DNA of 40,048 nucleotides. Source: a virus. Positions 1 through 40,048 of this stretch are shown piece by piece (positions within the stretch are counted from its first letter, which is position 1; each line of letters opens with the position of its first letter). Made by a program: the position numbers and the translations under genes. The notes below the pieces were generated by a model. The model was not told where the DNA came from and ran no database searches. It saw only the letters and a program-made list of their open reading frames with translations. The DNA is taken from positions 1 to 40,048 of the IMG/VR virus record IMGVR_UViG_3300017934_000002. The stretch is one strand, 5' to 3'.

Positions 1-116
1 CAACGTAGACCATAATCCGCTCCTGGAATGCTCTCATCCCGCCGTTTTTCAACCGATGGACCCTGGAATCCACTCATCGAATCGGCTCGAACCTGCCCGG
101 CTTCGCATGCTTCAAA
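1..116. repeat. Left copy of a 116-bp exact terminal repeat
   Basis: The first 116 bases are identical to the last 116 (39933-40048). The simplest reading is that the contig is a closed circle of 39932 unique bases and the overlap is an assembly artefact. A true terminally redundant linear genome is the alternative. Genes and the boundary repeat at 18-68 run across the join without interruption, which favours a circle or circular permutation. Confidence 0.95.
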
Positions 117-340
117 GCCTGCGTAACGCGCGCTGCCTGCGCCAAGAATCGGGGAGTTTTGCGAAAACGAATCGGCGGCCCCCAGTTCGCGGGATCAGCG
201 ACGGCTGCGGCAAACATCCTAACTATCGCGTCCATTACCCGCCATGCGAGTGCTTCAGGAGAATCGAGGCCAGCATCGAAACAGGCTTGCTGAAAGATCC
301 GTTCGCTCCAGAACTCGCGCGCAAAATCAGAATCGCTCAT
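74..340 (-). CDS. Hypothetical protein, 88 aa, downstream of the transglycosylase
   Basis: Unrecognised soluble protein that begins MSDSDFAREFW. The ATG at 340 overlaps the TGA of the transglycosylase gene as ATGA, so translation is probably coupled. An upstream in-frame Met gives a Cys/Gly/Ser-rich extension that I reject because it lies inside the previous gene. The sequence has an acidic N-terminus, a central helix-like stretch and a basic C-terminus ending KPGRFEPIR. It is the last gene before the boundary repeat at 18-68. Function unknown. Confidence 0.65.
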   Translation of the reverse strand: MSDSDFAREFWSERIFQQACFDAGLDSPEALAWRVMDAIVRMFAAAVADPANWGPPIRFRKTPRFLAQAARVTQALKHAKPGRFEPIR

Positions 341-861
341 CGTGTCACCGCCAGCACTACTAGACCCACTCCCAAAGCAGCAAGAGCAAGCCAAGCTCCA
401 GTAGAAAGCTGTCCGGTAGAAAACTGGGAATAGTCAAACGCGCCCGTGTCTTCCCCGACGACCGACGCGGAAGAAACGGAAGGCGCGGACACGTCGCCAG
501 ACAAGGCCAAGACCTTTTGAGCGTACCCCGCCCCGGCTGGAATGTTTCCCGGTCCTGCATTGTACGCCGCTAAGGCGGTATCCCAGTCTCCGAACTGGTT
601 GTAGAGCTTGGAAAGGTAGGACAGCCCGCCCTGTACGTTCTGGGTCAAATCGTGCGGATCGACTCCCAGATCCGAGGCCGTACCGGGCATCAGTTGCATA
701 ACCCCGATTGCGCCCTTGGGAGAGACCGCCGATTGGTTGAACCCGGATTCAGTCTGAGCGACCGCCAAGGCCAAGGAAGGAGGCACTCCGTACCCCGGCG
801 CCATGCTCGATATCAGGTCTTGCACCGAAGATGAGGAGCCGAGACCGCGCAAGGAGTACAT
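337..861 (-). CDS. Lytic transglycosylase (SLT domain) with C-terminal membrane anchor
   Basis: A lysozyme-like soluble-lytic-transglycosylase domain fills residues 12-110. It contains the catalytic Glu38 in TESGFNQ, the GAIGVMQLMPGTA motif and the AAYNAGPG motif, all diagnostic of the family that cleaves the MurNAc-GlcNAc bond of peptidoglycan. After a Ser/Val-rich linker, residues 150-174 form one transmembrane helix ending in Arg. The N-terminus MYSLRGLG matches the Met-Tyr/GLG start of several other membrane proteins here, suggesting a shared targeting or assembly signal. The likely role is local wall opening by a virion- or membrane-bound enzyme. Overlaps both neighbours by 1-4 bases. 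Confidence 0.93.
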   Translation of the reverse strand: MYSLRGLGSSSSVQDLISSMAPGYGVPPSLALAVAQTESGFNQSAVSPKGAIGVMQLMPGTASDLGVDPHDLTQNVQGGLSYLSKLYNQFGDWDTALAAYNAGPGNIPAGAGYAQKVLALSGDVSAPSVSSASVVGEDTGAFDYSQFSTGQLSTGAWLALAALGVGLVVLAVTR

Positions 862-983
862 CAGCGTCTCTCCGAATCCTTCAAACGCGCATTTTCGCTG
901 AAGGCCATGCGGATCAGCAGGACCGCCAAGACGAGCGCCGGAAATCCAACACAGCCGACCAGGAAAAGGCCCGCTTCGCTCAT
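861..983 (-). CDS. Small single-span membrane protein, 40 aa
   Basis: Starts MSEAGLFLVG and has one hydrophobic helix (residues about 5-27), then a short charged tail ending KDSERR. Its ATG overlaps the previous stop as ATGA, and GGGGAAGAC upstream supplies a Shine-Dalgarno. It sits directly before the transglycosylase gene, where phages often keep holin-like genes, but the size and location are the only support for that role. Confidence 0.6.
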   Translation of the reverse strand: MSEAGLFLVGCVGFPALVLAVLLIRMAFSENARLKDSERR

Positions 984-1321
984 GTCTTCCCCTGCCCTTC
1001 CCGAAGCCAATAATCGTCCGTGTGTCTTATGTTTGCCGGATAGCGCCGCAACATCATACGAACGTACCGTCGAAGTCGAAAAATATAGTGCGATGCGACC
1101 GAAGGCTTCCCATGCCGCCGCTTCACGCTTTCCCCTTGCCCTTCCCCGCACAGAGGGCAATTGACGTGCAAATGCCGACAGAGTTCTGGGCGCGGGCCAC
1201 TATCCGGCGGCGGTATCGGGAGCGCTCGTCTCCAGAAGTCTGCCAGCCATGCCCGGAAGCCATAGCCGAGCGCAAAGCCGGAAATCACGGCAATAGGCAA
1301 AAGCCAAAGAGCTTCTTGCAT
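980..1321 (-). CDS. Membrane protein with a CPLC zinc-knuckle-like segment, 113 aa
   Basis: An N-terminal transmembrane helix (residues 2-22, MQEALWLLPIAVISGF) is followed by a proline-rich stretch, a HVNCPLCG segment and a basic C-terminal half (FRLRRYVRMMLRRYP). The ATG at 1321 is chosen over upstream in-frame Mets because AAGGATTGACG lies just before it and a 27-codon gene ends there. Function unknown; topology predicts a basic cytoplasmic domain. Confidence 0.6.
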   Translation of the reverse strand: MQEALWLLPIAVISGFALGYGFRAWLADFWRRALPIPPPDSGPRPELCRHLHVNCPLCGEGQGESVKRRHGKPSVASHYIFRLRRYVRMMLRRYPANIRHTDDYWLREGQGKT

Positions 1322-1323
1322 CG

Positions 1324-1407
1324 TCAATCCTTCGGAATCGTCTTCCCGCGCAATTTCACGAGCGCCGCTTGAGCCAGGAACTTCAGAGCCGCCCAAACAG
1401 TTCTCAT
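1324..1407 (-). CDS. Tiny amphipathic peptide gene, 27 aa
   Basis: Encodes MRTVWAALKF then LAQAALVKLR and a short Lys-rich end. The start overlaps the stop of the 82-aa gene upstream as ATGA, and its stop lies 3 bases before the next start, the same spacing as the rest of the operon. The sequence looks like an amphipathic helix. Coupling and tight packing are the support; the product itself is unrecognised. Confidence 0.45.
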   Translation of the reverse strand: MRTVWAALKFLAQAALVKLRGKTIPKD

Positions 1408-1652
1408 GCCGCCGCCTTTTCGCGCAACGCGATTTCAACCACGCGGTTCAAGGGAAGCAGGTAGTACGATCCATCTGGTTTGATCACGTGCAGGTCCAAT
1501 CCATCGGACACCAGCCGGTTATCCGGCGCATACGCTTCCCGGTGTCCATCCCGGTACGTCACTTCAATGAAAGAGTAGATTCGCCGCGCCACAGCCCGAT
1601 TATACGGCTTTTTCGACGTGGGGAGGCTCGGAAACTTCGCTGATCGGTTCAC
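1404..1652 (-). CDS. Hypothetical small protein, 82 aa
   Basis: Contains IEVTYRDGHREAYAPDNR and a second beta-rich half (VIKPDGSYYLLPLNRVVEI), so probably a small beta domain. The ATG at 1652 overlaps the end of the fibre gene by 53 bases. A GTG about 60 bases in is an alternative start that removes a basic leader and leaves the conserved-looking part. It ends EKAAA, produced by the AAGGCGGCGGCATGA junction shared by many genes here. Confidence 0.6.
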   Translation of the reverse strand: MNRSAKFPSLPTSKKPYNRAVARRIYSFIEVTYRDGHREAYAPDNRLVSDGLDLHVIKPDGSYYLLPLNRVVEIALREKAAA

Positions 1653-3198
1653 AAGCAGTACTAGGACGCCGCTTCACGCCCCGGAGAATCACTTCCACCC
1701 CCGCCACGTACGCCTGAATCGTAATTGAACAAGCGACCGTGGCGACCACGGCCGCGGAGTCGGTGACTTGCACCGTGAAGGTAAAGACGCCGTAGGTCGT
1801 AGGCGTGCCCGAGGCGACCCCCGTGGCCGCGACCAAGGAAAGGCCCGGAGGCAGCGCCCCGGCTGAAATTGCAAACGTGTACGGAGGCGTTCCCCCGGAA
1901 GCCGTAAAAGTGTGGCTGTACGGCTGTAGCAGAAGCCCGCCAGGGGGATTGTTGCAGGAAGGTACCAAGGGAGGGACGAGTGGAGCGAAGAGAAAGAAAA
2001 GCGCATCGACGAACCCTGGCAGGAAAGCGGCCAAACGTCCCAGAACAGATCCGATGCGCCAATTCGGCAGCGAGAAAGCCTGCCCAGGAAATACGAAACC
2101 GGGTGGCGTCGGATCGACCAGGAAGTCATAAACCGTGCTAGTGGTCCATCCCAAAAGCGGGTTTGCGCTCTGCGCCACGCGAACCTGATTCGCCCCATAT
2201 GCCGGGTCCGTGGGTTGGACAAAAATCACGTACCAGAGCGCTCCATCGAAGGCAGCGGCGGGATATGGCGCAGTTCCATCGAACACGTTATAGGACGCTG
2301 CATCGACCCCCGGCGCCGCCAATTCGGTCCAGACCGGAGCGTTCAAAGGCGTACCGACATAAACGCTCACATAGCCTGGTATCGGCCCTGGCAGGCTGCG
2401 TATGACGGGCATGAGAATCGTGTTGTTCCCAACCGCTGGAGTAAGGCCGAAATACAGCAGATCGACCGGCAGCGCGCCTTGACCTGGAAAGTCGAAAAAC
2501 GAACCTAGACCGCCGCCCGACAAAAACTGCTGGTAGAAAAATCTGTCAGTCCACCCAGGCGTAAACGGATCGGTCAAAGCGAAGAAAATGTGCAGGGTAT
2601 CTGCGGCATCCATGACCGCCGGCAGCACATTGTTGAAAGAACCGATATTGGCGCCCGAACCGGCCCATCCAGGTAAGGCTTCCACATTCGTCTCAAGATC
2701 GACAATCGAAGACCATGCGCCTCCGCTGAACACATAGGCGCCCAGCCGGCTTGGAACGCCCGGCAGCGCGGTGGTATCTTCCACCAGGAGCACCAAGTCT
2801 CCGCTGGATCTTCGATATAAACCGAAAAGCGCATCTGGAGACGGAGCGCCCGCACCTCCAAAGGGAGCGCCCCAAGTCTCGCCAGCCAAATCGAAATTGC
2901 GCAGAATGACCGGAGCGCTTGCGCCCGGCGACGGCAGAAGCGCAATTGTGAGAGTGTTGGCTCCATCCCAAGCGAGACATTGAGCGTCGTAGAGCGCATT
3001 TGGCTCGTTAGCCGCATCGAGTTGGGTCCATGAGACCCCGCCATCGGTCGATTTCCAGACCTGTACGTCTTGCTGAACAGGCGGATAAACAATGACCGTG
3101 AATAGGTTTCCACCATGACGAAAGACCCCAGGATCACCCGCCCCAGGTTGCGGCATTCCAGTCGGACTCAAATTGCCGATCTGAGACAGGAGCATCAA
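1600..3198 (-). CDS. Beta-propeller/Ig-domain fibre-like protein A, 532 aa
   Basis: The first 390 residues are a repetitive beta-rich region with sialidase-like elements (KSTDGGVSWTQLD is an Asp-box type repeat), consistent with a propeller. Residues about 400-505 are a putative-Ig (He_PIG-like) domain with GGTPPYTFAISAGALPPGLSL. The end is GVEVILRGVKRRP, similar to the C-termini of the beta-rich proteins at 8585-11196. The Ig region is a near-copy of the one in the next gene upstream. Likely an adhesion or receptor-binding component of the particle. Starts 4 bases inside the upstream gene. Confidence 0.75.
   Translation of the reverse strand: MMLLSQIGNLSPTGMPQPGAGDPGVFRHGGNLFTVIVYPPVQQDVQVWKSTDGGVSWTQLDAANEPNALYDAQCLAWDGANTLTIALLPSPGASAPVILRNFDLAGETWGAPFGGAGAPSPDALFGLYRRSSGDLVLLVEDTTALPGVPSRLGAYVFSGGAWSSIVDLETNVEALPGWAGSGANIGSFNNVLPAVMDAADTLHIFFALTDPFTPGWTDRFFYQQFLSGGGLGSFFDFPGQGALPVDLLYFGLTPAVGNNTILMPVIRSLPGPIPGYVSVYVGTPLNAPVWTELAAPGVDAASYNVFDGTAPYPAAAFDGALWYVIFVQPTDPAYGANQVRVAQSANPLLGWTTSTVYDFLVDPTPPGFVFPGQAFSLPNWRIGSVLGRLAAFLPGFVDALFFLFAPLVPPLVPSCNNPPGGLLLQPYSHTFTASGGTPPYTFAISAGALPPGLSLVAATGVASGTPTTYGVFTFTVQVTDSAAVVATVACSITIQAYVAGVEVILRGVKRRPSTACEPISEVSEPPHVEKAV
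1670..1975. repeat. Imperfect direct repeat encoding the Ig module (copy in protein A)
   Basis: About 300 bp match 3266-3571 closely, with scattered synonymous and some non-synonymous changes. The repeat encodes the C-terminal Ig module and the VAGVEVILRGVKRR end. Boundaries are approximate. Confidence 0.85.
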
Positions 3199-4526
3199 AA
3201 TGTCCTAGGAACATGGGGAGGCTCTTCTATTTCGCCAACCGGTTCCAAACAGGTATCAGGACGCCGTTTCACGCCCCGTAGGATGACTTCTACTCCCGCC
3301 ACGTACGCCTGAATCGTGATTGAGCAAGCCACCGTGGCGACCACGGCCGCAGAGTCGGTGACTTGCAGGGTAAAGGAGAAGACGCCGTAGGCCGTAGGAG
3401 CGCCCGAGGCAATGCCAGTCAGAGGGTCCAACGAAAGGCCCGGAGGCAGCGCGCCCGCCGAAATAGCGAACGTGTACGGAGGCGTGCCCCCCGCAGCCGT
3501 AAAGGTGTGGGTGTAGGGCTGTAGCAGCAGGCCGGAAGCAGGGCTGTTGCAGGAAGGTATCAGGGGAGGGATGCCCAGCCCGAACGCAACCACCTGGACA
3601 GTATCGGGGATCTGGGAGGTTTGGAGCGTCCAGGCGATGCCATCGGGAGAGGTAAGGACATTTTGACCGCCCCCCGAACTGTATCCCACCGCCACAAACT
3701 CAGTTCCCGACCAAACCACCGAATGCAGGCCGGTATCGACGACCACGACCGGGGCGACTTGCCGAGTCCAGGTGATGCCATCGGGCGAAGTCATGACGGC
3801 CGGCTGTACTGGCGTCGGAGGCGAATTGGGAGATCCTACGGCGACATACAGCCCGGCGCCATACGCGATTCCAAGCCAGGAGACCCGCGGAACCGTAACC
3901 GGCGTAACCTGAGGGGTCCAAGTGACGCCATCCGGCGAAGTCATGGCTTGATGGTTTAGACCTGAACTCGCCAGCGCTACGAATTGACCGTTTGCAAAGC
4001 AGACCGCGCTCCAGTCCCGCACAGGGCCGGGAACGGCCTGTGGAGTCCAGGTGACCCCATCGGGAGAAGTCGCCACCATGGCTCCGCTTCCCACCGCCAC
4101 CAGAGCGGAAGGACCGGCAGGCCCGGCGCAGATGGATTGAAAAGAATTGCCGCCGGTGACAACCGTGGCCGTCTGGGTCCAAACCGTTCCATCGGGAGAA
4201 GTGACGACTACGGCGCCGCCGAATGTAGCATCGTCGATGGCTACAAACAGCCCAAGCGGAGCGCTGAAGCATACCGCGACAAATTCGCTGTTGGGCTGCG
4301 GGATGGCGTACCCCGTCCATGCCGCTCCATCGGGAGACGTCATCGCAATTTGCGTACTTCCGCCCGCATCGAAGCACAGCGCCACAAACGTGCTCAACGC
4401 GAAAGTAAGGGCGAAGCCACCGCTCGGATCGGTGGGAGAGGCGCGCAAGGTCCAGGTAACCCCGTCCGGGGAGCTTTCGACCTGGTTGGCCCCGCTCGAA
4501 AAGTTTCCGAGAGCGACAAAGGGCAT
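3195..4526 (-). CDS. BNR/Asp-box beta-propeller with Ig domain, fibre-like protein B, 443 aa
   Basis: Seven or more copies of SPDGxTWT occur at roughly 40-50 residue spacing through the first 310 residues. These are the Asp-box repeats of BNR/sialidase-like propellers. Residues about 315-415 form a He_PIG-type Ig domain, followed by VEVILRGVKRRP. Catalytic residues of a true sialidase are not evident, so a carbohydrate- or surface-binding role is more likely than hydrolysis. It is paired with protein A and shares its C-terminal third, indicating duplication or module exchange. Confidence 0.8.
   Translation of the reverse strand: MPFVALGNFSSGANQVESSPDGVTWTLRASPTDPSGGFALTFALSTFVALCFDAGGSTQIAMTSPDGAAWTGYAIPQPNSEFVAVCFSAPLGLFVAIDDATFGGAVVVTSPDGTVWTQTATVVTGGNSFQSICAGPAGPSALVAVGSGAMVATSPDGVTWTPQAVPGPVRDWSAVCFANGQFVALASSGLNHQAMTSPDGVTWTPQVTPVTVPRVSWLGIAYGAGLYVAVGSPNSPPTPVQPAVMTSPDGITWTRQVAPVVVVDTGLHSVVWSGTEFVAVGYSSGGGQNVLTSPDGIAWTLQTSQIPDTVQVVAFGLGIPPLIPSCNSPASGLLLQPYTHTFTAAGGTPPYTFAISAGALPPGLSLDPLTGIASGAPTAYGVFSFTLQVTDSAAVVATVACSITIQAYVAGVEVILRGVKRRPDTCLEPVGEIEEPPHVPRTF
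3266..3571. repeat. Imperfect direct repeat encoding the Ig module (copy in protein B)
   Basis: Partner of 1670-1975. The propeller parts of the two proteins differ while this module is conserved, as expected if it is the attachment end and the propellers are exchangeable binding heads. Confidence 0.85.
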
Positions 4527-4527: not shown

Positions 4528-4896
4528 TCAAGCCAGATTCGTTACGTCCACCATCAGCGAAGACCCCGCAGGACAGAACAGTTCAGGCTCCAGCGCCAGT
4601 CCCGGACCGGACTTCGTAAACACGCCCGCAGGTACCCAGACCCCGCCATACGTCAGATGCGTTCCGAAGGCATCCCGGAAACGGACGCCCAAGACCCCGC
4701 TTGGGTCGATCACTTCGATGGATCGGATTCGATACTCCACGTCCTTTTCCAGTTGCAAAGGGACGTTCAGAAACGATTGGCCCGGAAGAAGGCCAGGCGT
4801 CAAAGACGGCGTGTTGCTCCGGTCGAACGAGTACACGAATTCCTCATCTGTGAAGCCGGGAGGCGTCGGATAGGCGAATTGAGGACGGTAAGGCAT
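4528..4896 (-). CDS. Beta-rich structural-type protein, 122 aa, short paralogue of the 162-aa protein
   Basis: Begins MPYRPQFAYPTPPGFTDEEF and is homologous to the protein at 9474-9962 (NYRPQFA...GFHDEEF). Both carry LQLE.D...R.R/.ARG. in the middle and PEL/IxCPAGSxxM near the end. The start at 4896 follows from that alignment and GAAGGGCAGACA upstream. The frame stays open upstream to 5064, so an N-terminal extension through the otherwise empty 4897-5085 stretch cannot be excluded. Likely a virion component of jelly-roll type (inference). Confidence 0.7.
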   Translation of the reverse strand: MPYRPQFAYPTPPGFTDEEFVYSFDRSNTPSLTPGLLPGQSFLNVPLQLEKDVEYRIRSIEVIDPSGVLGVRFRDAFGTHLTYGGVWVPAGVFTKSGPGLALEPELFCPAGSSLMVDVTNLA

Positions 4897-5085
4897 TGTC
4901 TGCCCTTCAGAATGCCACCAAATGGAGAGCTTGACAACCACGACGGCAGCGACGCCGTTTCCAGCGATGGGTCCAGGAAGCGCCCGAAATTCCAGGTACA
5001 AAACCATTACCCCACCCGTCCAAAGGGCCTTGTAGGGCTTCCCTTGCACCGGAAAAAGGCACAAACGGCGTATTCCAGGGTCCTT

Positions 5086-5412
5086 TCAGCTTTTCGGGGA
5101 AGGTTGGCAGGATTTCAGGAATGCGGGCACATCGCCGGTAATTCCAGGCTGTTTCATGCGTTCCGGCCGGTTTTTTCGGAAGTCCTCAAACGCCTGAAGC
5201 CGGTTAGCGATTCCCGCCATGTGGGACGGTGTACAGCCATCTTCCATCGCCAACCACTGATAGTAAGTAAGCATTCGAGCCGCCAAGCGGTCCCGCGCCC
5301 GGAACAGAATCAGCGGCTCATCCTCCGGTATCGGAATGCCGGTTACAGCATTCACAATGACCGGCTCCCCGTCTCGAATGTCGATTGCGTATTTCGGATC
5401 TATCGCCTTCAT
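5086..5412 (-). CDS. Hypothetical protein, 108 aa
   Basis: Starts MKAIDPKYAIDIRDGEPVIV. The first half carries beta-strand-like segments and PIPEDEPLILFRARDRLAARML; the second half is helical and basic. The ATG overlaps the HNH stop as TGATG. Soluble; its position after the HNH gene is the only functional clue. Function unknown. Confidence 0.65.
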   Translation of the reverse strand: MKAIDPKYAIDIRDGEPVIVNAVTGIPIPEDEPLILFRARDRLAARMLTYYQWLAMEDGCTPSHMAGIANRLQAFEDFRKNRPERMKQPGITGDVPAFLKSCQPSPKS

Positions 5413-5984
5413 CAGAACGGAACCTCCGATGCCCGCCCACCACGCCGACCGGAACGCGCTGCCGCCAATTTCGAGGCGAACTCGGAACGCTTGTGGCTGG
5501 GCGTGGCCCGGATCATGGCGACCGCATCGGAGACCTTCATAGTGGAAGTCAGGCCGGCATTCCGGTCAGAGCTTCCCACCCCGCCTTTTACTTTGCCCTG
5601 TGCGCGCGGTCTGATAGCTCCCACAGCCTGAACCCACTCCCCAAGGCTTGCAGCCCCGCCGCCCCTTGTCGGATTGAACTGGGCCGTTCTACGCCCCATT
5701 CTGGCCCGTTTCAGAGCATTGGAGTGATAACCGTTGCAGGACCGGCAAGTCCAGCAGAGGTTTTCCGGCTCGTTGTGGGATTCGTGGCCGTCCAGATGGC
5801 CCACCATGATCTGTTTCTTGGAGCCGCAGAATGCGCAGACTTTCGGGCCTTCGGGAGCGTTCCGGTTGGCCCGGTAGCGTTGCGCACGGTCTGTCAGATT
5901 GGGAACTTGCCGCGCGGAGTACTCCGTGACATGCAGGCCTTTGGAGCGGGTGACCGGACGGAATTTGACTACCACCAGGGGCAT
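5412..5984 (-). CDS. HNH-type endonuclease-like protein, 190 aa
   Basis: Zinc pairs CAFC (residues 50-53) and CRSC (80-83) flank a VGHLDGHESHNEPENL core. This is the layout of HNH-fold proteins common in phages (zinc ribbon, His-rich strand, Asn, second CxxC). The ATG at 5984 is preferred because GGAG lies 8 bases upstream; a longer frame runs to 6056 but that part overlaps a separate tiny ORF. The C-terminal half is basic with SDAVAMIRATPSHKRSEFASKL. It may be a homing-type or packaging-associated nicking enzyme; the activity is inferred from the family. Confidence 0.8.
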   Translation of the reverse strand: MPLVVVKFRPVTRSKGLHVTEYSARQVPNLTDRAQRYRANRNAPEGPKVCAFCGSKKQIMVGHLDGHESHNEPENLCWTCRSCNGYHSNALKRARMGRRTAQFNPTRGGGAASLGEWVQAVGAIRPRAQGKVKGGVGSSDRNAGLTSTMKVSDAVAMIRATPSHKRSEFASKLAAARSGRRGGRASEVPF

Positions 5985-5988
5985 ACGG

Positions 5989-6069
5989 CTACTCCAACGT
6001 ATCTTCCAGCAGCCACCACCAGAGATTGCCAGAGCAACCACCAAGAAAAAGCCCAAATAGCCACATCAT
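5989..6069 (-). CDS. Tiny hydrophobic peptide gene, 26 aa
   Basis: Encodes MMWLFGLFLGGCSGN then LWWWLLEDTLE, a very hydrophobic Trp-rich peptide. It lies between the stop of the 72-aa gene and the start of the HNH gene and fills the gap almost exactly. Its stop is 4 bases upstream of the HNH ATG, and that ATG's Shine-Dalgarno falls inside it. Reality depends on this packing alone. Confidence 0.35.
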   Translation of the reverse strand: MMWLFGLFLGGCSGNLWWWLLEDTLE

Positions 6070-6312: not shown

Positions 6313-6410
6313 TGGTGCGGGCGGCAGGACTCGAACCTACACCATTCTGCTTATCGAATGGCCTTCCGGCTTTTCATCCGGCGCCCTGATGCCAATTCGG
6401 GTACGCCCGC
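6313..6410 (-). tRNA. Class II (long variable arm) tRNA with encoded CCA and atypical anticodon arm
   Basis: The 98-nt minus-strand RNA folds with a 7-bp acceptor (GCGGGCG/CGCCCGC), discriminator A and encoded CCA. It has a 3-bp D stem with a Leu-like loop, a 6-bp variable arm (CCATTC/GAATGG) and a T arm GTAGG-TTCGAGT-CCTGC. The anticodon arm reads CCGG-ATGAAAAG-CCGG, giving an 8-nt loop (or 6 nt with an A-G closing pair), so the anticodon cannot be assigned safely. The only loop U would make it GAA, which does not suit a class II body. Expression is supported by the promoter at 6422-6451. Confidence 0.8.
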
Positions 6411-19911: not shown

Positions 19912-19916
19912 TCGTT

Positions 19917-29222: not shown

Positions 29223-29404
29223 AAACCGTTGTTCGCATCAAAGATCCGGAATTAGGAAACGGAACCTATCTGTTCTGCCTGGCCGAGCCAGTGCCGACCG
29301 ATGACGCCGGAATCATCGCACGGGTCTGCGAATGCTCCCCTAGCGCAACCGCAGTCCTCATTACCCGTGAATATCCATGTGCCCCGCGGAGGAGAGCGGC
29401 ATGA
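29219..29404 (+). CDS. Hypothetical small protein, 61 aa
   Basis: MKTVVRIKDPELGNGTYLFC with a later CECSPSATAVLITREYPC, a possible disulphide or zinc site. Ends RRRAA. Same junction motif at both ends. Function unknown. Confidence 0.55.
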   Translation: MKTVVRIKDPELGNGTYLFCLAEPVPTDDAGIIARVCECSPSATAVLITREYPCAPRRRAA

Positions 29405-34022: not shown

Positions 34023-34093
34023 TCCCGCTTCAGAGAAGCCCCACGGTGAACGGAATACCGCCATAGCCCGTTAAAAGCGCTACAATCGTGCGC

Positions 34094-35689
34094 ATGAAGA
34101 TCACAGTCCTTTCCGCCTTCGCATCCCTGATTCTGTTTTCGGCAGCCGGCCAGGCGCAAGGAAATCCCGACTGCCAATTCACCGATACCTTTACCGCAGT
34201 CGTGGCCGGCCCGAGCCACGCCAATACCGGAACTCCCTGCGTGGCTTGGCGCTTGACATACAGCGCGGTAGGCATGACGGCTCTTTCCATCCAGATCGAA
34301 GGGGCGCCCTGGAACTCGGGAGGGACTGGCCCCGGAACATTCGTGGCGATCGCATCGGCCGCAATTCTCCAAGGCACGAATCCGCTCACGGACCCGAACT
34401 CGGGCACGCTTGTAGTACAGGGCACGGTGTATTTTCCGTTCATCCGGCTAAACGTAACCGTCTTCACTCCGACCGGAGCTTCGGGAACGATCACCGCGCG
34501 GCTGTACGGCTACAAAGGCACATCGGCCGCAGCCATCAGCGGAGCCGATATTCTCTCCAATCCCATGTTGGCCCTTGGCGACATGATTTACGGAACCGCT
34601 GGAGGTACGCCCGCCCGCCTGCCGGCGAACACCACCACGAACCCGGATTGTCTCGTCGAGATGGGCGATGGAACCAACGGAGGCATACCGGCCTTCGGCC
34701 CGTGTCCCACAAACGGGACACTGACCTACTACATCACCCCAACCGCATCGGACCTCACGAACGGAAGCGCCATCGTCACCCAAGACGTCAAAATGCTCAC
34801 CCCGCCCTACTCGCCCATCACCAATATCGACATAGCCCACAATGCGGCGGGAGACGTGATCCTACAGAGCGTAGCGACCGACCCCGGCTTCCCCGGCGTC
34901 ACCTTCATACCGGCAGGCGTCTACACCTTCCATATCCACGCAGAGAGGCTCTCGGGGAACCGCGCCGTTACGCTGTACGGCGTGTTCCGGGAAGTGACCG
35001 CAGCGGGCGTAGCTGTAGGAACCATCGGAACGCTGACGGAATCGACGCCCGCGCTTACTGGAAGCCAACTCGAATACGTCCTCCAGATGCCGGATGGAAA
35101 CACGTACACAATGGCCCTCATCACTTCGCGCATCGTGCTCGACATCCATGCCGTCTTTACCGGAGGTTCGACAAACACGACGGTACGGCTGTTCGTGGGA
35201 GGCACGGCGGATTCCCACATGAGCTTGCCATCGAATACCGTCGATGCGACGAGCTTTGTACCGTACACGGGAGCGACCGCGGCGCTCAACCTTGGAACCC
35301 AGGCGCTCATTCTGAACGGATCGACAGTGACGGGAGTTTGGACCCAGACAACGCCCACGCCGACCTGTGCCGTGGGGGCCTTCACCACCGTCAGTGGGAT
35401 TTTGCACACGCTCACTCTCGGCAAGACAGTTTTCCTAAACCTTGCCATCACCATTACGACTAATGGCACCTGCGCCGCCGCCATTTTCCTGCCGCTGCCC
35501 TTCAGCGCGGCTTTCGACAACTCGCTCAGTTGTTCGGCGGAAGTCGCTTCGGTGAACGGAAATGGCGTGATCTTGCCGTCCTTCGGACCGCCATATGATC
35601 ACGAGGTAGCAATCGGCCGCTACGACGGAACTTTTCTCGGAGGAGACGGCGAAGTCATTGTGTGCAATGGAGTAATTCAGATTCCGTGA
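34094..35689 (+). CDS. Secreted fibre/adhesin-like protein, 531 aa, leaderless start
   Basis: Signal peptide: MKITVLSAFASLILF then SAAGQAQG, with a likely cut near residue 21. The rest is beta-rich and Gly/Thr-rich; FVPYTGATAALNLGTQALIL near residue 394 and the C-terminal GKTVFLNLAITITTNGTC region resemble phage tail-fibre repeats and heads. TACAAT lies 7 bases before ATG 34094. An exported fibre is unusual for a tailed phage and could instead be displayed on the host or on an enveloped or membrane-assembled particle. Confidence 0.7.
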   Translation: MKITVLSAFASLILFSAAGQAQGNPDCQFTDTFTAVVAGPSHANTGTPCVAWRLTYSAVGMTALSIQIEGAPWNSGGTGPGTFVAIASAAILQGTNPLTDPNSGTLVVQGTVYFPFIRLNVTVFTPTGASGTITARLYGYKGTSAAAISGADILSNPMLALGDMIYGTAGGTPARLPANTTTNPDCLVEMGDGTNGGIPAFGPCPTNGTLTYYITPTASDLTNGSAIVTQDVKMLTPPYSPITNIDIAHNAAGDVILQSVATDPGFPGVTFIPAGVYTFHIHAERLSGNRAVTLYGVFREVTAAGVAVGTIGTLTESTPALTGSQLEYVLQMPDGNTYTMALITSRIVLDIHAVFTGGSTNTTVRLFVGGTADSHMSLPSNTVDATSFVPYTGATAALNLGTQALILNGSTVTGVWTQTTPTPTCAVGAFTTVSGILHTLTLGKTVFLNLAITITTNGTCAAAIFLPLPFSAAFDNSLSCSAEVASVNGNGVILPSFGPPYDHEVAIGRYDGTFLGGDGEVIVCNGVIQIP

Positions 35690-35698
35690 AAGATCCCC

Positions 35699-35866
35699 AT
35701 GTTCTGGGTCGAGTACTTCTGCCCCCGGCAATCCCCCTTCTGGCAAAGAGGCCAGCAGCCCTACAGCACGCTTTACGCCGCGATGGTGATGGCGCAAGCT
35801 CTTAAACCACCCCAAGGCCAAGCCCGAGTGCTCGATTGCTACGGCCAGATCGTCTACAGCCTGTAG
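35699..35866 (+). CDS. Small hypothetical protein, 55 aa
   Basis: MFWVEYFCPRQSPFWQRGQQ then PYSTLYAAMVMAQALKPPQG and ARVLDCYGQIVYSL. The strand-helix-strand plan with a final D-x-x-G-x-I-V strand recurs in small phage proteins of unknown function. Starts 9 bases after the fibre gene stop and ends the plus unit. Confidence 0.6.
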   Translation: MFWVEYFCPRQSPFWQRGQQPYSTLYAAMVMAQALKPPQGQARVLDCYGQIVYSL

Positions 35867-35871
35867 CCAAG

Positions 35872-35893
35872 AGGCGGAAAGCCGCCTTCCTGC
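35872..35893 (+). terminator. Weak stem-loop after the plus unit
   Basis: AGGCGG-AAAG-CCGCCT is a perfect 6-bp stem; the following sequence TCCTGCCATTTT has only a short, displaced T-run. It is placed correctly to end the plus unit but is below a typical intrinsic terminator. Confidence 0.4.
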
Positions 35894-36140
35894 CATTTTC
35901 AGACCTTCGGAGGATCAAAACCCCCACCCGATTCCATGGAGGCCTTATTTCGCGCAGAAACCGGGGAGGATACGAGGAGCGGGAGGCTGCCAAAAACCAA
36001 ATGGCCCGGAGCCGGTTCATAACGCCGACTCCAGGCCAAGATGGTGGGCAGCCTCTTTCCGATACAAACGCCCAATGAACGATCACCGGACGCTCAGACT
36101 CAGCCCCCGCCCCCGCCCCGTACGGAGTGATAAGAGAAAC

Positions 36141-36190
36141 AGCGGACGTGCGCGTCCGCTTCCAACTCGCCTAGGACGTGTGCGTCCGCT
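36141..36190. repeat. Pair of palindromes of the dispersed GCGGAC motif
   Basis: AGCGGACG-TGCG-CGTCCGCT (36141-36160) is a perfect 8-bp dyad, and GGACG-TGTG-CGTCC (36174-36187) follows 14 bases later. Both relate to the iterons in the initiator gene and to copies at 10726, 16594 and 20454. Confidence 0.8.
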
Positions 36191-36261
36191 ACAAACCGCT
36201 TCACGCCCGAAAGAAGACTCTACAACCAATCGGGGAAGGGTGTCAAGAACAAAATCAAGGG

Positions 36262-36315
36262 CTATTCCATGGCGGCGCTTGCCTGCTTTGAGGGTGTGGA
36301 GGATGCGAGGAGCGC
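36262..36315 (-). repeat. R-A boundary repeat, copy 1
   Basis: About 54 bp shared with 36701-36754 and 37438-37491. On the minus strand it encodes the common C-terminal tail ALLASSTPSKQASAAME and the stop. Confidence 0.92.
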
Positions 36316-36612
36316 GGACATTTCGCGCATATCCACAGACTCAGCCCGCCGCCGCAGGCACTTCCCGCACGTCTTTAGATTCGGAAACAGAGCCAGCAGT
36401 TCAGGCGTTACCCTCACAATACGGCTCAGGCAATCGAGGCCCTTTTTCACCGAGCCGCAATCAGCGAAGTAGTGCAACAGGCTCACATGGTAAGTTCCCG
36501 TTCCCTCTGGAGGACTCAGGACCGAAGACCGAGACGGGATGCAGACGGGATCTGGAGACGTGTACGCGCGCCGGGAGACCTCATTCACAACTATGAAGCA
36601 GACTTGATCCAT
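36262..36612 (-). CDS. Cassette protein with cysteine pairs and shared C-terminal tail, 116 aa, leaderless
   Basis: Unique N-terminal part (MDQVCFIVVNEVSRRAYTSP; later FPNLKTCGKCLRRRAESV with a CxxC) joined to the common tail SALLASSTPSKQASAAME. TAGAAT (36619-36624) is 6 bases before the ATG, preceded by TTGCGC at 18 bases. Last gene of the long minus unit. Function unknown. Confidence 0.55.
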   Translation of the reverse strand: MDQVCFIVVNEVSRRAYTSPDPVCIPSRSSVLSPPEGTGTYHVSLLHYFADCGSVKKGLDCLSRIVRVTPELLALFPNLKTCGKCLRRRAESVDMREMSALLASSTPSKQASAAME

Positions 36613-36618
36613 GCGGCG

Positions 36619-36683
36619 ATTCTAACCCCGCGCTCCTGGAACGCGCAAGCCTTCAGGAGCGAACGGATGGACCCTGGAATACC
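36619..36683 (-). promoter_or_regulatory. Promoter plus R-B boundary repeat of the 116-aa cassette
   Basis: TAGAAT 36619-36624, TTGCGC 36643-36648 (18 apart), near-palindrome CGCTCCTGGAACG at 36631-36643 in the spacer, and the second half ACCCTGGAATACC ending 36683. Confidence 0.75.
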
Positions 36684-36700
36684 GGAAGGACCTTTAACGA

Positions 36701-36754
36701 CTATTCCGTGGCGGCGCTTGCCTGCTTTGAGGGTTCTGAGCGTGTGAGGAGCGC
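36701..36754 (-). repeat. R-A boundary repeat, copy 2
   Basis: Encodes ALLTRSEPSKQASAATE and stop on the minus strand; starts 17 bases after the R-B element of the next gene. Confidence 0.92.
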
Positions 36755-37006
36755 CCGCTCTGCCGGATATTTAGTGACCTTTTCGCACTGCCAGCAAGGG
36801 ACCGAAGCGCGCACTTGAACCCGAAAAAACACCGAATGCCCACAAGCCAACTGATACTCGTCAATTCCTTCAGGGTGATGTTTCATGGCGACCACGCTAC
36901 GGTAGAAACGCAATGGATCTGGTCTGCGACCAAGACGAAAGGCCGAAATCAGTAGACTTGCTAGAACCAGAACGGCGCAAGCGGCGCAAATAACTATCAG
37001 AACCAT
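36701..37006 (-). CDS. Cassette membrane/zinc protein with shared tail, 101 aa, leaderless
   Basis: N-terminal transmembrane helix (MVLIVICAACAVLVLASLLI), then a soluble part with QLACGH and PCWQCEKV (possible zinc site), ending in the shared tail. TAGAAT (37014-37019) is 7 bases before the ATG. Function unknown. Confidence 0.58.
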   Translation of the reverse strand: MVLIVICAACAVLVLASLLISAFRLGRRPDPLRFYRSVVAMKHHPEGIDEYQLACGHSVFFRVQVRASVPCWQCEKVTKYPAERALLTRSEPSKQASAATE

Positions 37007-37013
37007 GGGACCG

Positions 37014-37079
37014 ATTCTAAACCCGCGCTCCTGGAACGCGCAAGGGCCACAGGTACTATCGGATGGTGAACGGAATACC
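37014..37079 (-). promoter_or_regulatory. Promoter plus R-B boundary repeat of the 101-aa cassette
   Basis: TAGAAT 37014-37019 and TTGCGC 37038-37043, 18 apart, with CGCTCCTGGAACG between. The second half is changed to GGTGAACGGAATACC, a sequence also found at 34045 on the plus strand before the fibre gene. Confidence 0.72.
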
Positions 37080-37091
37080 AGAAAAGGGTGT

Positions 37092-37430
37092 TCAGAGCCA
37101 AACCGCCCAGATCAAGCCGGCAGAATTCGTAACCCGCGATCCGAAAACCCGGTCCACCACGGTTGTCACATCCGGCCATTGGGGGTTGTGGTAATCGTGG
37201 CCGCAGATGAGCCGGCGGGCCTTTGGCGTCCAAAGCTCCAGGTCGAGTGCAACACCGGCTTCCAAATGATCTCCATCCACGAAACCCATATCCACCGTAG
37301 CGTTGACCAAGCCAGCCGCTTCAGCGCTCGGAACCGAGAACACGCCCAATTTACCGTAGGTTGGAACAGAGCGCCGAAAGTCGATTTGCAGGTTTTCAAT
37401 CCGTTCGGTGAGGTTTTTGAACGAACAGAA
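37092..37430 (-). pseudogene. Truncated class I methyltransferase, remnant of the gene at 38649-39200
   Basis: The open frame, read from 37430, matches the last 110 residues of the intact enzyme (GFVDGDHLEAGVALDLELWT, HDYHNPQWPDVTTVVDRVFG). The AdoMet-binding first third is absent and no promoter or good start codon is present (a TTG at 37349 is the first candidate). The break lies about 10 bases from the R-A tail of the next gene, so it looks like a cassette cut at the boundary repeat. Confidence 0.8.
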
Positions 37431-37437
37431 TCAACCG

Positions 37438-37491
37438 CTATTCCGTGGCGGCGCTTGCCTGCTTTGAGGGTGTGGAGGATGCGAGGAGCGC
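37438..37491 (-). repeat. R-A boundary repeat, copy 3
   Basis: Encodes SALLASSTPSKQASAATE and stop; nearly identical to copy 1 over 54 bp. Confidence 0.92.
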
Positions 37492-37653
37492 AGACCTTCG
37501 TTGCATCGAAGCAAACCCCTTGTATTCCTCTGCGTGGGCCTCACAGACACGTAAGATCCATCCCCGCCCGCCGAAATAAGCGGTAAACCCACTGACCGAA
37601 TAGACCCACCGCTCCCGACAGTACGGACGCTGACATAGATCGAAGTTTTTCAC
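37438..37653 (-). CDS. Cassette zinc protein with shared tail, 71 aa (GTG start), leaderless
   Basis: LCQRPYCRERWVYSVSGFTA and RVCEAHAEEYKGF supply CxxxxC and CxxH, a plausible zinc site, followed by the shared tail. TAGAAT (37663-37668) is 9 bases before GTG. Function unknown. Confidence 0.55.
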   Translation of the reverse strand: MKNFDLCQRPYCRERWVYSVSGFTAYFGGRGWILRVCEAHAEEYKGFASMQRRSALLASSTPSKQASAATE

Positions 37654-37662
37654 GGCAGACCG

Positions 37663-37727
37663 ATTCTAAACCCCGCTCCTGGAACGCGCAAGGCCCACAG
37701 GTACTATCGGATGGACCCTGGAATACC
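37663..37727 (-). promoter_or_regulatory. Promoter plus R-B boundary repeat of the 71-aa cassette
   Basis: TAGAAT 37663-37668 and TTGCGC 37686-37691 (17 apart), CGCTCCTGGAACG in the spacer, ACCCTGGAATACC ending 37727. Confidence 0.75.
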
Positions 37728-37735
37728 AAAAGGGG

Positions 37736-37891
37736 TTGGATCGGGCGCGTCACCCCCAACTCTTCGCGCCCGATCCCGTTCCAGAGTGTCCCTACGAACC
37801 GGAGGCGGACAAGGGCTGGCCTGAAACGTTTCTCAAAGTGGGCACCGGGTCCAAAAAGAAGGGCCAACGCTTCGGATTTACAGCCCCATGA
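37736..37891 (+). CDS. Possible small gene or gene fragment on the plus strand, about 51 aa
   Basis: From a TTG at 37736 the frame reads LDRARHPQLFAPDPVPECPY, then EPEADKGWPETFLKVGTGSK and KKGQRFGFTAP. Composition is protein-like, but there is no ATG/GTG and the start region is a 12-bp hairpin. It could be a broken cassette. Otherwise 37728-37930 would be empty. Confidence 0.35.
   Translation: MDRARHPQLFAPDPVPECPYEPEADKGWPETFLKVGTGSKKKGQRFGFTAP
37738..37776. other. Perfect 12-bp hairpin between cassettes
   Basis: GGATCGGGCGCG (37738-37749) pairs fully with CGCGCCCGATCC (37765-37776) around a 15-base loop, directly after an R-B element. No T-run on either side, so not a normal terminator. 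Confidence 0.75.
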
Positions 37892-37930
37892 ATGGTCCGC
37901 ACAGCGCCCACTCTGAAGAGTATAGCGCCG

Positions 37931-38197
37931 TTATGCGGCCGGAGGGGTTGCAGGAGCGGGCGCGTGTCCGAAGAATCCGGAAGCGTTCAAGTTCTTCACA
38001 ATCGAATCGATCAAAGTGGAAGCAGCCTGTACATGGGCTTCAGGGACAGCTTCGCCGGCTTGCGCCGCGGCGTCGATGGACGCCAGCACAATCTGTTTCT
38101 TGGTTTCGCCTGGAACGCCCTTGGCGGCGGCTTCTACAGCGATGACTCCCCCGAGGATCTGCGGGAAAATCGAGAACAGGAAAGCGAGTATTTTCAT
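37931..38197 (-). CDS. Hypothetical phage-type membrane-associated protein, 88 aa, leaderless
   Basis: MKILAFLFSIFPQILGGVIA is a hydrophobic N-terminal segment. A helical Ala-rich body (ETKKQIVLASIDAAAQAGEA, VQAASTLIDSIVKNLNASGFF) and an Ala/Pro tail follow. The pattern with KKQ-V-L and a final IV.LNASG.F is frequent among phage proteins near lysis genes, function unknown. TAGAAT (38207-38212) is 9 bases before the ATG. Confidence 0.65.
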   Translation of the reverse strand: MKILAFLFSIFPQILGGVIAVEAAAKGVPGETKKQIVLASIDAAAQAGEAVPEAHVQAASTLIDSIVKNLNASGFFGHAPAPATPPAA

Positions 38198-38215
38198 AGT
38201 GATTCGATTCTAGCG

Positions 38216-38506
38216 CTATTTGAGCGCCGCCGCTATAGCGGCATCCCGTTTGGCCTTTGCGGCTTCCACGTCGGCGTCATAGGCGGCGATAGCAGCTCTG
38301 ACCGCCACGTCCACGGTCGAAAGCCCAACCGCCACCGAAGCGCCCCACATCGAAGCCCAATTCGACGGATTGCCGGAAGCCGCTATGGCTTCGCGCGCCT
38401 TTTCGGCCGCCGCGGCCTGCTCGACCGTCATGCCGTTTGGCACGACGGCCGGAACCGTTCCCGGAGGTGGAGCCGGAGTCCCGTGAAATGGAGCCATGTC
38501 GCCCAT
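38216..38506 (-). CDS. Hypothetical Ala-rich protein, 96 aa
   Basis: Pro-rich N-terminus (MGDMAPFHGTPAPPPGTVP) and a long Ala/Lys helix (EQAAAAEKAREAIAASGNPS, DADVEAAKAKRDAAIAAALK). AGGAG precedes ATG 38506 after TAGAAT (38531-38536), so this one has a leader and ribosome site. 38507-38648 holds only this promoter. Confidence 0.6.
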   Translation of the reverse strand: MGDMAPFHGTPAPPPGTVPAVVPNGMTVEQAAAAEKAREAIAASGNPSNWASMWGASVAVGLSTVDVAVRAAIAAYDADVEAAKAKRDAAIAAALK

Positions 38507-38648
38507 AAAGTCGTTTATCTCCTGGCTTCGATTCTAGCACCGGGGAAGTTCCCACGGCCATGGTTTTCAGTGAAATACTCGCCCCAAGCGCGTTTTGGCG
38601 TGCAATCTTCCCCGGATTTCGGAACTCAGAGATTGGGCACTTTGAGGA

Positions 38649-39200
38649 CTATGGTAGCACTTCCACGGCCCAGATCATGCCGGTTGGATTTTGCACGCGC
38701 GACCCGAAAACCCGGTCAACCACGGTTGTCACATCCGGCCACGTCGGGTTGTGATAGTCGTGGCCTGCAATCAACTTCCGGGCCTTTGGCGTCCACAACT
38801 CCAGGTCGAGCGCAACCGCAGCCTCCAGATGGTCTCCGTCCACGAAAACCATGTCGAGGCCAGTCATCAAGAACGGTACAGCATCAAACGCCTTTGCGGC
38901 ATCGGCGCTTTTCATCGCACAGGTTCGCAACTGGTTCCAAACGCGCTCGAAACCGATGCGGGATTCCAGATTTTGCATGAAAAGCGCATGTGGCCGTTCC
39001 CCATTGCCCATGATATCCTGCCACGTATCCACCGCATACACCGGGCCTTTGCAGCCCTGCAACAGCGCGAACGTGGAACGCCCTTGGTAGCAGCCGATTT
39101 CCACCACGGAACTCATTTGAGAGGCTGTATCGAACAGCCATTGAAGCTCGGATTCGTCCATCCAACCGGGAATGGAGAGATCGTAGGGAGGCGTCATCAC
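38649..39200 (-). CDS. Class I SAM-dependent methyltransferase (Methyltransf_24-like), 183 aa
   Basis: SSVVEIGCYQGRSTFALLQG is motif I (EIGCYQG at residues 34-40), VYAVDTW motif II, and MVFVDGDHLEAAVALDLELW the conserved DGDH strand and helix. Phages carry such enzymes for modifying sugars or small molecules; the substrate is unknown. Start is GTG 39200 or ATG 39197, with TAGAAT (39206-39211) 5-8 bases upstream. A truncated copy lies at 37092-37430. The two-domain glycosyltransferase may be a partner in glycan modification (inference). Confidence 0.8.
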   Translation of the reverse strand: MMTPPYDLSIPGWMDESELQWLFDTASQMSSVVEIGCYQGRSTFALLQGCKGPVYAVDTWQDIMGNGERPHALFMQNLESRIGFERVWNQLRTCAMKSADAAKAFDAVPFLMTGLDMVFVDGDHLEAAVALDLELWTPKARKLIAGHDYHNPTWPDVTTVVDRVFGSRVQNPTGMIWAVEVLP

Positions 39201-39234
39201 AGCCGATTCTAACGAGGTTTCGGGGCTTTCATAC

Positions 39235-39546
39235 TCAAGCCGCCTTACTGTACCAGAGAACGCCAGCAGCAGCAGCCAAAATGAACGCCATCCACTGTTG
39301 CAAAACCATCTTTTCCCCTATGACGACGCTGCCCGTGAAAATCGAGAGAACGATAGCTATGATCGTCCACAGCAGGGCGACTTCAAACCAAGAGCCACGC
39401 CGATACGATGCCCAGACCGGATAGGCGCTTACCGCATAAAAGAGGACTCCAAGCCAGAAAAACCGGTTGATCCCCACCGCATGCCTGAGGGACCAATCGC
39501 CCGCTTGCGCCAGTACAACAGCCACAACAATCAACGCGAAAATCAT
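39235..39546 (-). CDS. Four-span membrane protein, SMR/EamA-like, 103 aa
   Basis: Four hydrophobic helices: IFALIVVAVVLAQAG, FFWLGVLFYAVSAYPVWASY, FEVALLWTIIAIVLSIFTG and WMAFILAAAAGVLWYS. Length and topology match small multidrug-resistance/EamA-type half transporters, though the SMR Glu in helix 1 is not evident. CAGGAG within the boundary repeat is its ribosome site. Function in the element unknown; perhaps a lipid- or sugar-flipping accessory to the glycosyltransferase. Confidence 0.7.
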   Translation of the reverse strand: MIFALIVVAVVLAQAGDWSLRHAVGINRFFWLGVLFYAVSAYPVWASYRRGSWFEVALLWTIIAIVLSIFTGSVVIGEKMVLQQWMAFILAAAAGVLWYSKAA

Positions 39547-39608
39547 TGGCCCGCTCCTGAAATGCTCTCATCCCGCCGTTTTTCAACCGATGGACCCTGG
39601 AAAGTCAT
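39543..39608 (-). CDS. Possible 21-codon leader peptide upstream of the four-span protein
   Basis: MTFQGPSVEKRRDESISGAG starts 8 bases after TAGAAT (39617-39622), and its stop overlaps the next ATG as ATGA. It is made entirely of the boundary repeat. Its translation would couple to the transporter gene; could be fortuitous. Confidence 0.3.
   Translation of the reverse strand: MTFQGPSVEKRRDESISGAGQ
39552..39602 (-). repeat. R-B' boundary repeat, copy before the four-span protein
   Basis: Identical to 39950-40000 except for one base in CTCCTGGAA/CTCCTGAAA. In these two copies CAGGAG is the ribosome site of the gene that follows. Confidence 0.92.
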
Positions 39609-39651
39609 ACAGAGCGATTCTAACGCTATTCCGGGGAACGTGGCGACGTTT

Positions 39652-39945
39652 TCAAGCGGGTTCTGAGGGTGCGAGGAGCGCGGGACCGCGATCACGGAAA
39701 AGTGATGGAAACAACTTGCGGCCCAGTTCCATTTGACTAATTTCGAGCGCTCCAGCCTCCACCGCTAATTTGCGTTTTGCCAGGCAGATATCGAAATGCT
39801 CCTGTCGCGTGCCCGCTTTCTGAATCCATCTGGACTGAACACCGATCCGCGCCGCCATCGCCAAAAGCTCATCGTGCGTATCCGCGATCATGTGACACAT
39901 CACCATACGCCCAAACGCAGCCTTCATGCCGTCAACGTAGACCAT
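39652..39945 (-). CDS. DUF4031 family protein, 97 aa
   Basis: MVYVDGMKAAFGRMVMCHMI then ADTHDELLAMAARIGV, DICLAKRKLAVEAGALEIS and MELGRKLF are the signature features of DUF4031, a small family common in phages and of unknown function. CAGGAG 6 bases before ATG 39945 fixes the start. Ends ALLAPSEPA, a diverged form of the shared cassette tail. Confidence 0.88.
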   Translation of the reverse strand: MVYVDGMKAAFGRMVMCHMIADTHDELLAMAARIGVQSRWIQKAGTRQEHFDICLAKRKLAVEAGALEISQMELGRKLFPSLFRDRGPALLAPSEPA

Positions 39946-40048
39946 AATCCGCTCCTGGAATGCTCTCATCCCGCCGTTTTTCAACCGATGGACCCTGGAA
40001 TCCACTCATCGAATCGGCTCGAACCTGCCCGGCTTCGCATGCTTCAAA
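39933..40048. repeat. Right copy of the 116-bp exact terminal repeat
   Basis: Identical to 1-116. It contains the start codon and Shine-Dalgarno of the DUF4031 gene, a boundary repeat (39950-40000) and the 3' end of the 88-residue gene found at 74-340. Confidence 0.95.
39950..40000 (-). repeat. R-B' boundary repeat, copy before DUF4031 (also at 18-68)
   Basis: Carries CGCTCCTGGAATG and, 40 bases on, ACCCTGGAATCC. It lies in the terminal redundancy, so it appears twice in the window but once on the circle. Confidence 0.92.

Follow-up and report, generated by a model that had tools for sequence, protein, structure and literature searches.

Circular genome and its relatives

In this work, we describe a virus-like element recorded in IMG/VR as IMGVR_UViG_3300017934_000002, whose 40,048 bases were analysed in full (hereafter, the window), together with a group of related genomes in which no packaging motor was recognised. 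Both ends of the record are exactly identical over 116 bases. Part of this overlap (39949-40000) duplicates a local 52-nt repeat with its other copy at 39551-39602, and the identity of the ends reaches well past that repeat. The end region comprises:

1-116: terminal identity with 39933-40048, closing the circle (end comparison, relatives)
35690-40048: repeat-rich stretch with no conserved genes (comparison with relatives, repeat count)

A preliminary description of the sequence had proposed a search for relatives, which yielded seven further contigs encoding the same proteins and with the same architecture, making up a group of eight from soil and bog metagenomes. Relatives in IMG/VR include 3300018040_000021, 3300046505_000151, 3300018005_000007, 3300046698_000387 and the fragment 3300046504_000111, as well as two contigs at a greater distance, 3300039307_000112 and 3300038415_000108. 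PLGA01000082.1 is a related 39.5-kb contig found in a Bryobacterales metagenome-assembled genome (MAG) with bog in its name. Near-complete members of the group measure 36.5-41.8 kb, and the gene order is common to all eight genomes. Only chance matches were obtained when five proteins were compared by tblastn with 50,697 phage records.

Identical ends were also found in four relatives (127 bases in G002, 123 in G003, 40 in G402 and 30 in G005). The G002 contig ends between the orthologues of 8585-9493 and 9474-10085, and that of G003 inside a block of tail-anchored genes; both are uninterrupted across the region where the window is cut. Because the end identity is exact, the relatives checked are cut at other points and two of them cross the join, the circle is real, as the preliminary description had read from the overlap, and the window genome is apparently complete. 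Less certain, perhaps, is how long the repeat-rich end stretch is. Coding was also described as nearly continuous, which does not hold for 35690-40048 plus 1-336 (about 4.6 kb), where we found many repeats and no conserved gene. In 35690-40048, 7% of the 12-mers are repeated, against 0.2-3.6% in control stretches, and the repeats centre on GATGGACCCTGGAA and TGGCGGCGCTTGCCTGC; the matching stretches of most relatives are not repetitive.

Candidate capsid and membrane proteins

The candidate structural genes of the window are as follows:

4528-5064 (-): single-domain beta protein, paralogue of 9474-10085, candidate minor capsid or spike protein; real start probably near 4890-4910 (profiles)
6731-7291 (-): conserved protein, structural candidate (relatives)
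7279-7791 (-): most conserved group protein in near relatives (70-79% identity), structural candidate; may start further upstream, at 7905
8585-9493 (-): tandem two-domain jelly-roll-like capsid candidate (profiles, alignments)
9474-10085 (-): jelly-roll-like protein of one domain, probably starting near 9960 (profiles, alignments)
10231-11196 (-): tandem two-domain jelly-roll-like capsid candidate, AlphaFold2 model m95ea65940164 (profiles, MAFFT, AlphaFold2, Foldseek)
11739-12464 (-): candidate major capsid protein, 241 aa, from position and length (relatives)

Profile comparison (hhalign) identified 9474-10085 and 4528-5064 as paralogues (E 1e-40). Their domain recurs in the C-terminal half of 10231-11196 (P 96.6%, E 7e-10) and in each half of 8585-9493 (P 95.6% and 91.4%), the matches between two-domain and single-domain proteins ranging over P 91-97% and E 1e-6 to 1e-10. 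Moreover, the N-terminal half of 10231-11196 was found by a domain hidden Markov model built without this protein (E 4e-4), and MAFFT aligned 10231-11196 and 8585-9493 over their full length as two-domain proteins. Judged from these comparisons, both are tandem copies of one predicted beta domain that is single in 9474-10085 and 4528-5064.

The AlphaFold2 model of 10231-11196, for which the paralogues were added to the alignment as extra rows, contains two beta-sandwich domains, with a predicted local distance difference test (pLDDT) of 72.9, mostly 75-95 in domain 2, and a predicted template modelling score of 0.61. Foldseek matched it in the PDB to tandem jelly rolls (bicupins, PHM), to the PR772 capsid protein (probability 0.80) and to an iridovirus capsid protein (0.69), which may point to the jelly-roll capsid trait of the PRD1-adenovirus lineage in its broad sense. 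Against BFVD, two matches had a probability of 1.00, I1ZBI0 (256 aa) and D5L2B0 ('uncultured virus'). The model of 11739-12464, built from six sequences, reached a pLDDT of 30 and was discarded. Searches of PDB sequence profiles with 11739-12464, 10231-11196 and 8585-9493 returned one chance match and nothing else. The preliminary description had considered that the capsid genes might be too diverged to see and had singled out 10231-11196 and 11739-12464 for structural checks; the duplicated jelly-roll-like family supports the idea, and the check gave two jelly-roll-like domains for the former protein and no usable model for the latter. Capsid candidates thus appear, on the modelled fold, to be present and unrecognisable by sequence.

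The second conspicuous set of genes encodes membrane proteins:

337-861 (-): SLT lytic transglycosylase anchored in the membrane by its C-terminus, probably used by the virion at entry and counterpart of gp54 of phage SSIP-1 (Pfam PF01464, E 1.3e-26; hydrophobic segment at 155)
9959-10231 (-): small tail-anchored membrane protein (MYVGLG..., C-terminal transmembrane segment; hydropathy)
12567-13457 (-): Arg-rich N-terminus followed by hydrophobic segments, candidate membrane protein of the virion that may condense DNA (sequence, relatives)
13488-13940 (-): small protein with an N-terminal transmembrane segment (relatives, hydropathy)
17263-17637 (-): small membrane protein (relatives, hydropathy)
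17640-18071 (-): tail-anchored membrane protein (hydropathy)
18338-18652 (-): tail-anchored membrane protein (MYTCGLG...; hydropathy)
19258-19920 (-): Cys-rich tail-anchored protein, conserved in both clades (relatives, hydropathy)
19917-21050 (-): tail-anchored protein resembling transglutaminases (cysteine peptidase type), corresponding to SSIP-1 gp34 (hhalign 89.5%, E 2e-6)

A C-terminal hydrophobic segment followed by a short tail was found in the SLT protein, in 19917-21050, in 19258-19920 and in several small proteins, and several tail-anchored proteins start with MY..GLG. A sequence search with 9959-10231 gave no relative. This set supports a membrane-containing particle, which is the best supported of the ideas in the preliminary description. 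The wall-degrading, fibre, regulator and DNA-modification genes that it listed are also present, but the DNA-modification match is weak, falling below the Pfam cut-off, and the SLT protein, because of its C-terminal membrane anchor, is more likely a virion entry enzyme than an endolysin. Motifs of the form xNPx recur in 12567-13457 (RRNPA, HNPAG) and in SSIP-1 gp41 and gp44 (RENPS, HENPS), so that both virus types have them in proteins that would associate with DNA or membrane in the virion.

Missing hallmarks, strand asymmetry and other genes

Pfam, PHROGs and NCBIfam gave no hit in the window to a terminase, portal, HK97 capsid, tape measure, polymerase, helicase or integrase, and the same scans revealed no Caudoviricetes hallmark (terminase large subunit, portal, HK97 capsid). 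The functions they did recognise are all peripheral: SLT transglycosylase, He_PIG Ig domain, family 2 glycosyltransferase, HNH nucleases, MerR, a weak C5-methyltransferase and a transglutaminase-like domain. Scanning the open reading frames (ORFs) and the conserved alignment columns for Walker A detected no conserved P-loop in any family alignment. Among the chosen window ORFs, the sole Walker A match to a regular expression lies in 29377-29703 (108 aa), a frame without any relative; matches in single ORFs were dropped as evidence of a motor, the motif not being conserved. No packaging nucleoside triphosphatase (NTPase) was recognised in the seven related contigs either, and the ATPase gp40 of SSIP-1 had no tblastn match in the group (best E 0.99). 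A motor, if encoded by the group, is no recognisable P-loop NTPase. The absence of recognisable packaging motor, portal, HK97 capsid, polymerase and integrase noted in the preliminary description was therefore borne out, and that of packaging and replication NTPases extends to all eight genomes; its statement that no gene-sized frame carries Walker A holds for conserved P-loops, the match in 29377-29703 being unconserved. None of the results that it had named as contrary (a match to a terminase, FtsK/HerA, portal or HK97 capsid; a chimera or fragment) turned up.

At 4-fold degenerate sites of the window plus strand, A exceeds T with a skew of +0.30 in minus-strand genes and +0.32 in plus-strand genes, and C exceeds G, again irrespective of gene orientation. 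The skew keeps one sign in the relatives wherever both orientations could be counted, the fragment G006 having only one. We initially read this as a sign of single-stranded DNA (ssDNA), a reading that was dropped: PM2, a double-stranded DNA (dsDNA) phage with rolling-circle replication, likewise shows a GC skew whose sign does not depend on gene orientation, and the asymmetry therefore supports unidirectional replication only. One strand would be consistently exposed or lagging, so that unidirectional, rolling-circle-like replication is likely, and packaging of the genome as ssDNA is possible.

The remaining genes with an assignment or with conservation in the group are:

1600-3198 (-): surface or fibre-like protein carrying a He_PIG Ig domain and ending in a '..GVKRR' tail (PF05345, E 2e-12)
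3195-4526 (-): surface or fibre-like protein, internally repetitive, with a He_PIG domain (Pfam, self-comparison)
5412-6056 (-): HNH nuclease, joined in G402/G403 to the 15385-type protein (PHROG HNH matches)
13937-15388 (-): family 2 glycosyltransferase-like protein (PF00535, phrog_1574, relatives)
15385-16683 (-): conserved protein without assignable fold, its C-terminal domain with an invariant HxH; HNH-fused in G402/G403
21173-22651 (+): conserved protein of 492 aa that has an AT-hook-like motif (GRPPK) and no assignable fold (relatives)
23625-24581 (-): C5-cytosine methyltransferase-like, weak match below the Pfam cut-off (Pfam)
26483-27592 (-): winged-helix protein confined to clade 1, a candidate regulator or initiator of replication
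27724-28185 (-): MerR-type regulator (PF13411, E 1.4e-9)
28393-29019 (+): DUF968/HNH nuclease (PF06147, E 2.4e-11; relatives)
34088-35689 (+): secreted or fibre-like variable protein (relatives, hydropathy)

In the distant clade (L036:2610-4274, L037:4309-6114), the HNH and 15385-type proteins form one fused protein of 554-601 aa. A tRNA-like gene at 6313-6410 (-) has an odd anticodon loop (gaaa), an extra arm and an encoded CCA (32.2 bits against the Rfam tRNA model); it is absent from the relatives, G402 having instead a tRNA-Met near the SLT gene. A 673-codon frame at 11640-13661 (+), antisense to structural genes and partly open in relatives, is probably a codon-usage effect of the opposite genes.

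A search for integrated copies in genomes of Acidobacteriota (396) and Bryobacterales (257) found none, the free-standing contig G004 being the only hit. A DNA search for host spacers in the 257 Bryobacterales genomes gave short matches, several of them in the He_PIG coding region, and no convincing protospacer. Within 3195-4526, the He_PIG-coding segment 3436-3493 has short DNA matches of 79-82% in several Bryobacterales genomes, and the domain is perhaps host-derived. With no match in phage records and no integrated copy, a host is suggested by the one contig binned in a Bryobacterales MAG, and it would plausibly belong to the Acidobacteriota.

Packaging, rival explanations and comparison with known systems

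The group is thus circular and syntenic throughout its eight genomes, has no P-loop family, and combines tandem-duplicated jelly-roll-like domains with tail-anchored enzymes and strand asymmetry. We consider it probable that it represents an undescribed, family-level group of tailless, membrane-containing jelly-roll phages that package DNA without a virus-encoded motor. Host polymerase and helicase would replicate the circle unidirectionally, in a rolling-circle-like manner, while tail-anchored viral proteins would gather in the host inner membrane and mark a patch, at which the Arg-rich membrane protein 12567-13457 may bind, condense or tether the DNA. The one-barrel (9474-10085, 4528-5064) and two-barrel (10231-11196, 8585-9493) jelly-roll proteins, with 11739-12464, would then close over the membrane around the DNA. 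No virus-encoded packaging NTPase would be needed in this proposal, because capsid and membrane would assemble around the DNA; at entry, the tail-anchored transglycosylase would open the host wall. That a family with circular genomes of about 40 kb, 2-5 times larger than other motor-free jelly-roll phages, assembles capsid and membrane around condensed DNA without any NTPase of its own is a tentative suggestion, to which we give somewhat less than an even chance.

Several points weigh against this reading. Membrane and particle are deduced from hydropathy and gene content. The Foldseek template modelling scores are low (0.1-0.35), so that the likeness concerns fold class and is no proof of descent; the PDB E-values are modest, and some of the top PDB matches are non-viral jelly rolls. 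I1ZBI0, to which the tool gave no name, was taken as gp47, a structural protein of SSIP-1, from its length only, gp47 being the sole SSIP-1 protein of 256 aa, and sequence comparison with gp47 was no better than with shuffled gp47. Relatives of gp47 sought in IMG/VR to bridge the gap were limited to SSIP-1 itself. Pfam, PHROG and NCBIfam scans did not match the capsid candidates to known capsids, and the likeliest major capsid protein by position, 11739-12464, gave no usable fold. Finally, the prokaryotic double jelly-roll viruses without packaging ATPase are far smaller, at 7-18 kb (PMC5894146).

Among the alternatives, the same type of virus may possess a packaging motor too diverged to recognise, for instance within 15385-16683 or 21173-22651. 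SSIP-1 does have an ATPase, and several large conserved proteins of the group have no assignable fold; nevertheless, P-loop NTPases retain Walker A, whereas a conserved GK[ST] occurs in no family alignment and gp40 found no counterpart, which makes this explanation unlikely. Slightly less likely still is a satellite or plasmid that relies on a helper virus for capsid and motor, its jelly-roll proteins serving only as surface or receptor proteins. The lack of recognised NTPase, polymerase and integrase would fit, as would the carbohydrate-binding and tail-fibre proteins in the Foldseek list, but a large operon, conserved over some 20 genes that include the duplicated jelly rolls, an entry enzyme and several membrane proteins, would not, nor would the constant size of 36-42 kb and the absence of helper-type (Caudoviricetes) genes from eight genomes. 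The nearest architectural match, SSIP-1, is moreover an autonomous phage. The helper dependence raised in the preliminary description is accordingly not supported, given the full structural operon and no helper-related gene or integration seen.

We regard as improbable a capsid-less virus budding as membrane vesicles, similar to plasmaviruses or pleolipoviruses, with jelly-roll proteins as spikes. It would account for the many tail-anchored proteins and the unrecognised motor, but not for two-domain jelly rolls that resemble in fold the capsid proteins of PR772 and an iridovirus, along with a protein equal in length to one of SSIP-1, nor for a gene order parallel to that of the icosahedral SSIP-1; to our knowledge, budding viruses do not require a wall-degrading entry enzyme of the SLT type. 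Least credible, and very improbable, is a tailed phage of the Caudoviricetes whose head and packaging genes escape detection, or a chimera made in assembly: He_PIG or fibre-like proteins, SLT domains and HNH genes do occur in tailed phages, but PHROGs, Pfam and NCBIfam detected no head or packaging hallmark, no gene is of tape-measure size, and seven other contigs share the architecture. The preliminary interpretation is therefore supported in part, for diverged capsid genes and a possible membrane particle, and finds no support for helper dependence; its 'undescribed' particle type is only half right, as the architecture parallels that of an isolated phage.

There are precedents for packaging DNA with no ATPase, albeit in far smaller genomes. 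FLiP has an internal membrane, a jelly-roll capsid, a virion-associated transglycosylase and no packaging ATPase (PMC7654751), and the Odin group lacks this enzyme too (PMC5894146); none was recognised in our group. FLiP differs in its 9.2-kb ssDNA genome with a rolling-circle Rep, the circular ssDNA genomes of Finnlakeviridae spanning 9-17 kb against 36-42 kb here, and its major capsid and lytic proteins had no match among the group profiles (best hhalign probability of the former 0.7%). The capsid of P23-77 combines one-barrel and two-barrel proteins, VP16 and VP17 (PMC4958249), a combination of the P23-77/SH1 (sphaerolipovirus-like, vertical single-beta-barrel) type that 9474-10085 and 4528-5064 with 10231-11196 and 8585-9493 would suggest here. 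Those viruses, however, encode a packaging ATPase, which was not recognised by sequence here, and have smaller genomes. PM2 (Corticoviridae) is like the group in its circular genome, its lytic protein anchored in the membrane and its uniform GC skew, and has the internal membrane and rolling-circle replication that are proposed here, but has only 10 kb, a packaging ATPase and a Rep gene, and its major capsid protein has no profile similarity to the group.

The closest parallel is SSIP-1, a membrane-containing phage of about 100 nm (T=49) with a 44-kb circular dsDNA genome and two capsid protein types (PMC6260650, PMC6356626). SSIP-1-like viruses have no formal taxon. Both have circular genomes of about 40-44 kb (36.5-41.8 kb in the near-complete members of our group), and gene order is similar, with a transglutaminase-like protein first, then membrane proteins, a capsid block and a late muralytic enzyme. 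The tail-anchored transglutaminase-like gp34, which opens the structural block, corresponds to the 19917-21050 family (tblastn against G403, E 2.4e-6), and the tail-anchored lysozyme gp54, near the block end, to 337-861, with a weak sequence link (hmmsearch E 9e-4). Small tail-anchored proteins are also shared (gp39, gp42 and gp52 in SSIP-1). The capsid proteins gp45-gp47 have no sequence match in the group; the likeness of gp47, a two-domain jelly-roll-like structural protein identified through its length, to 10231-11196 and 8585-9493 is one of fold. On the other hand, SSIP-1 encodes a primase, an integrase and gp40, a predicted packaging ATPase (PMC4124505), none of which was recognised here, shows no skew at 4-fold sites and infects the halophile Salisaeta.

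The group should not yet be filed as a relative of SSIP-1 by descent, which would be premature ahead of a comparison of capsid structures. Searches by sequence overlook the capsids of membrane-containing phages without tails, which has left such phages badly undersampled. Small genomes (7-18 kb) are expected where a virus lacks a packaging ATPase, an expectation that this group would break, and motor-free packaging of about 40 kb becomes testable. SSIP-1 has been a near-orphan since 2012, and these eight soil and bog genomes are its apparent architectural cousins, most likely SSIP-1-like in plan and set apart by the lack of an ATPase and by strand asymmetry.

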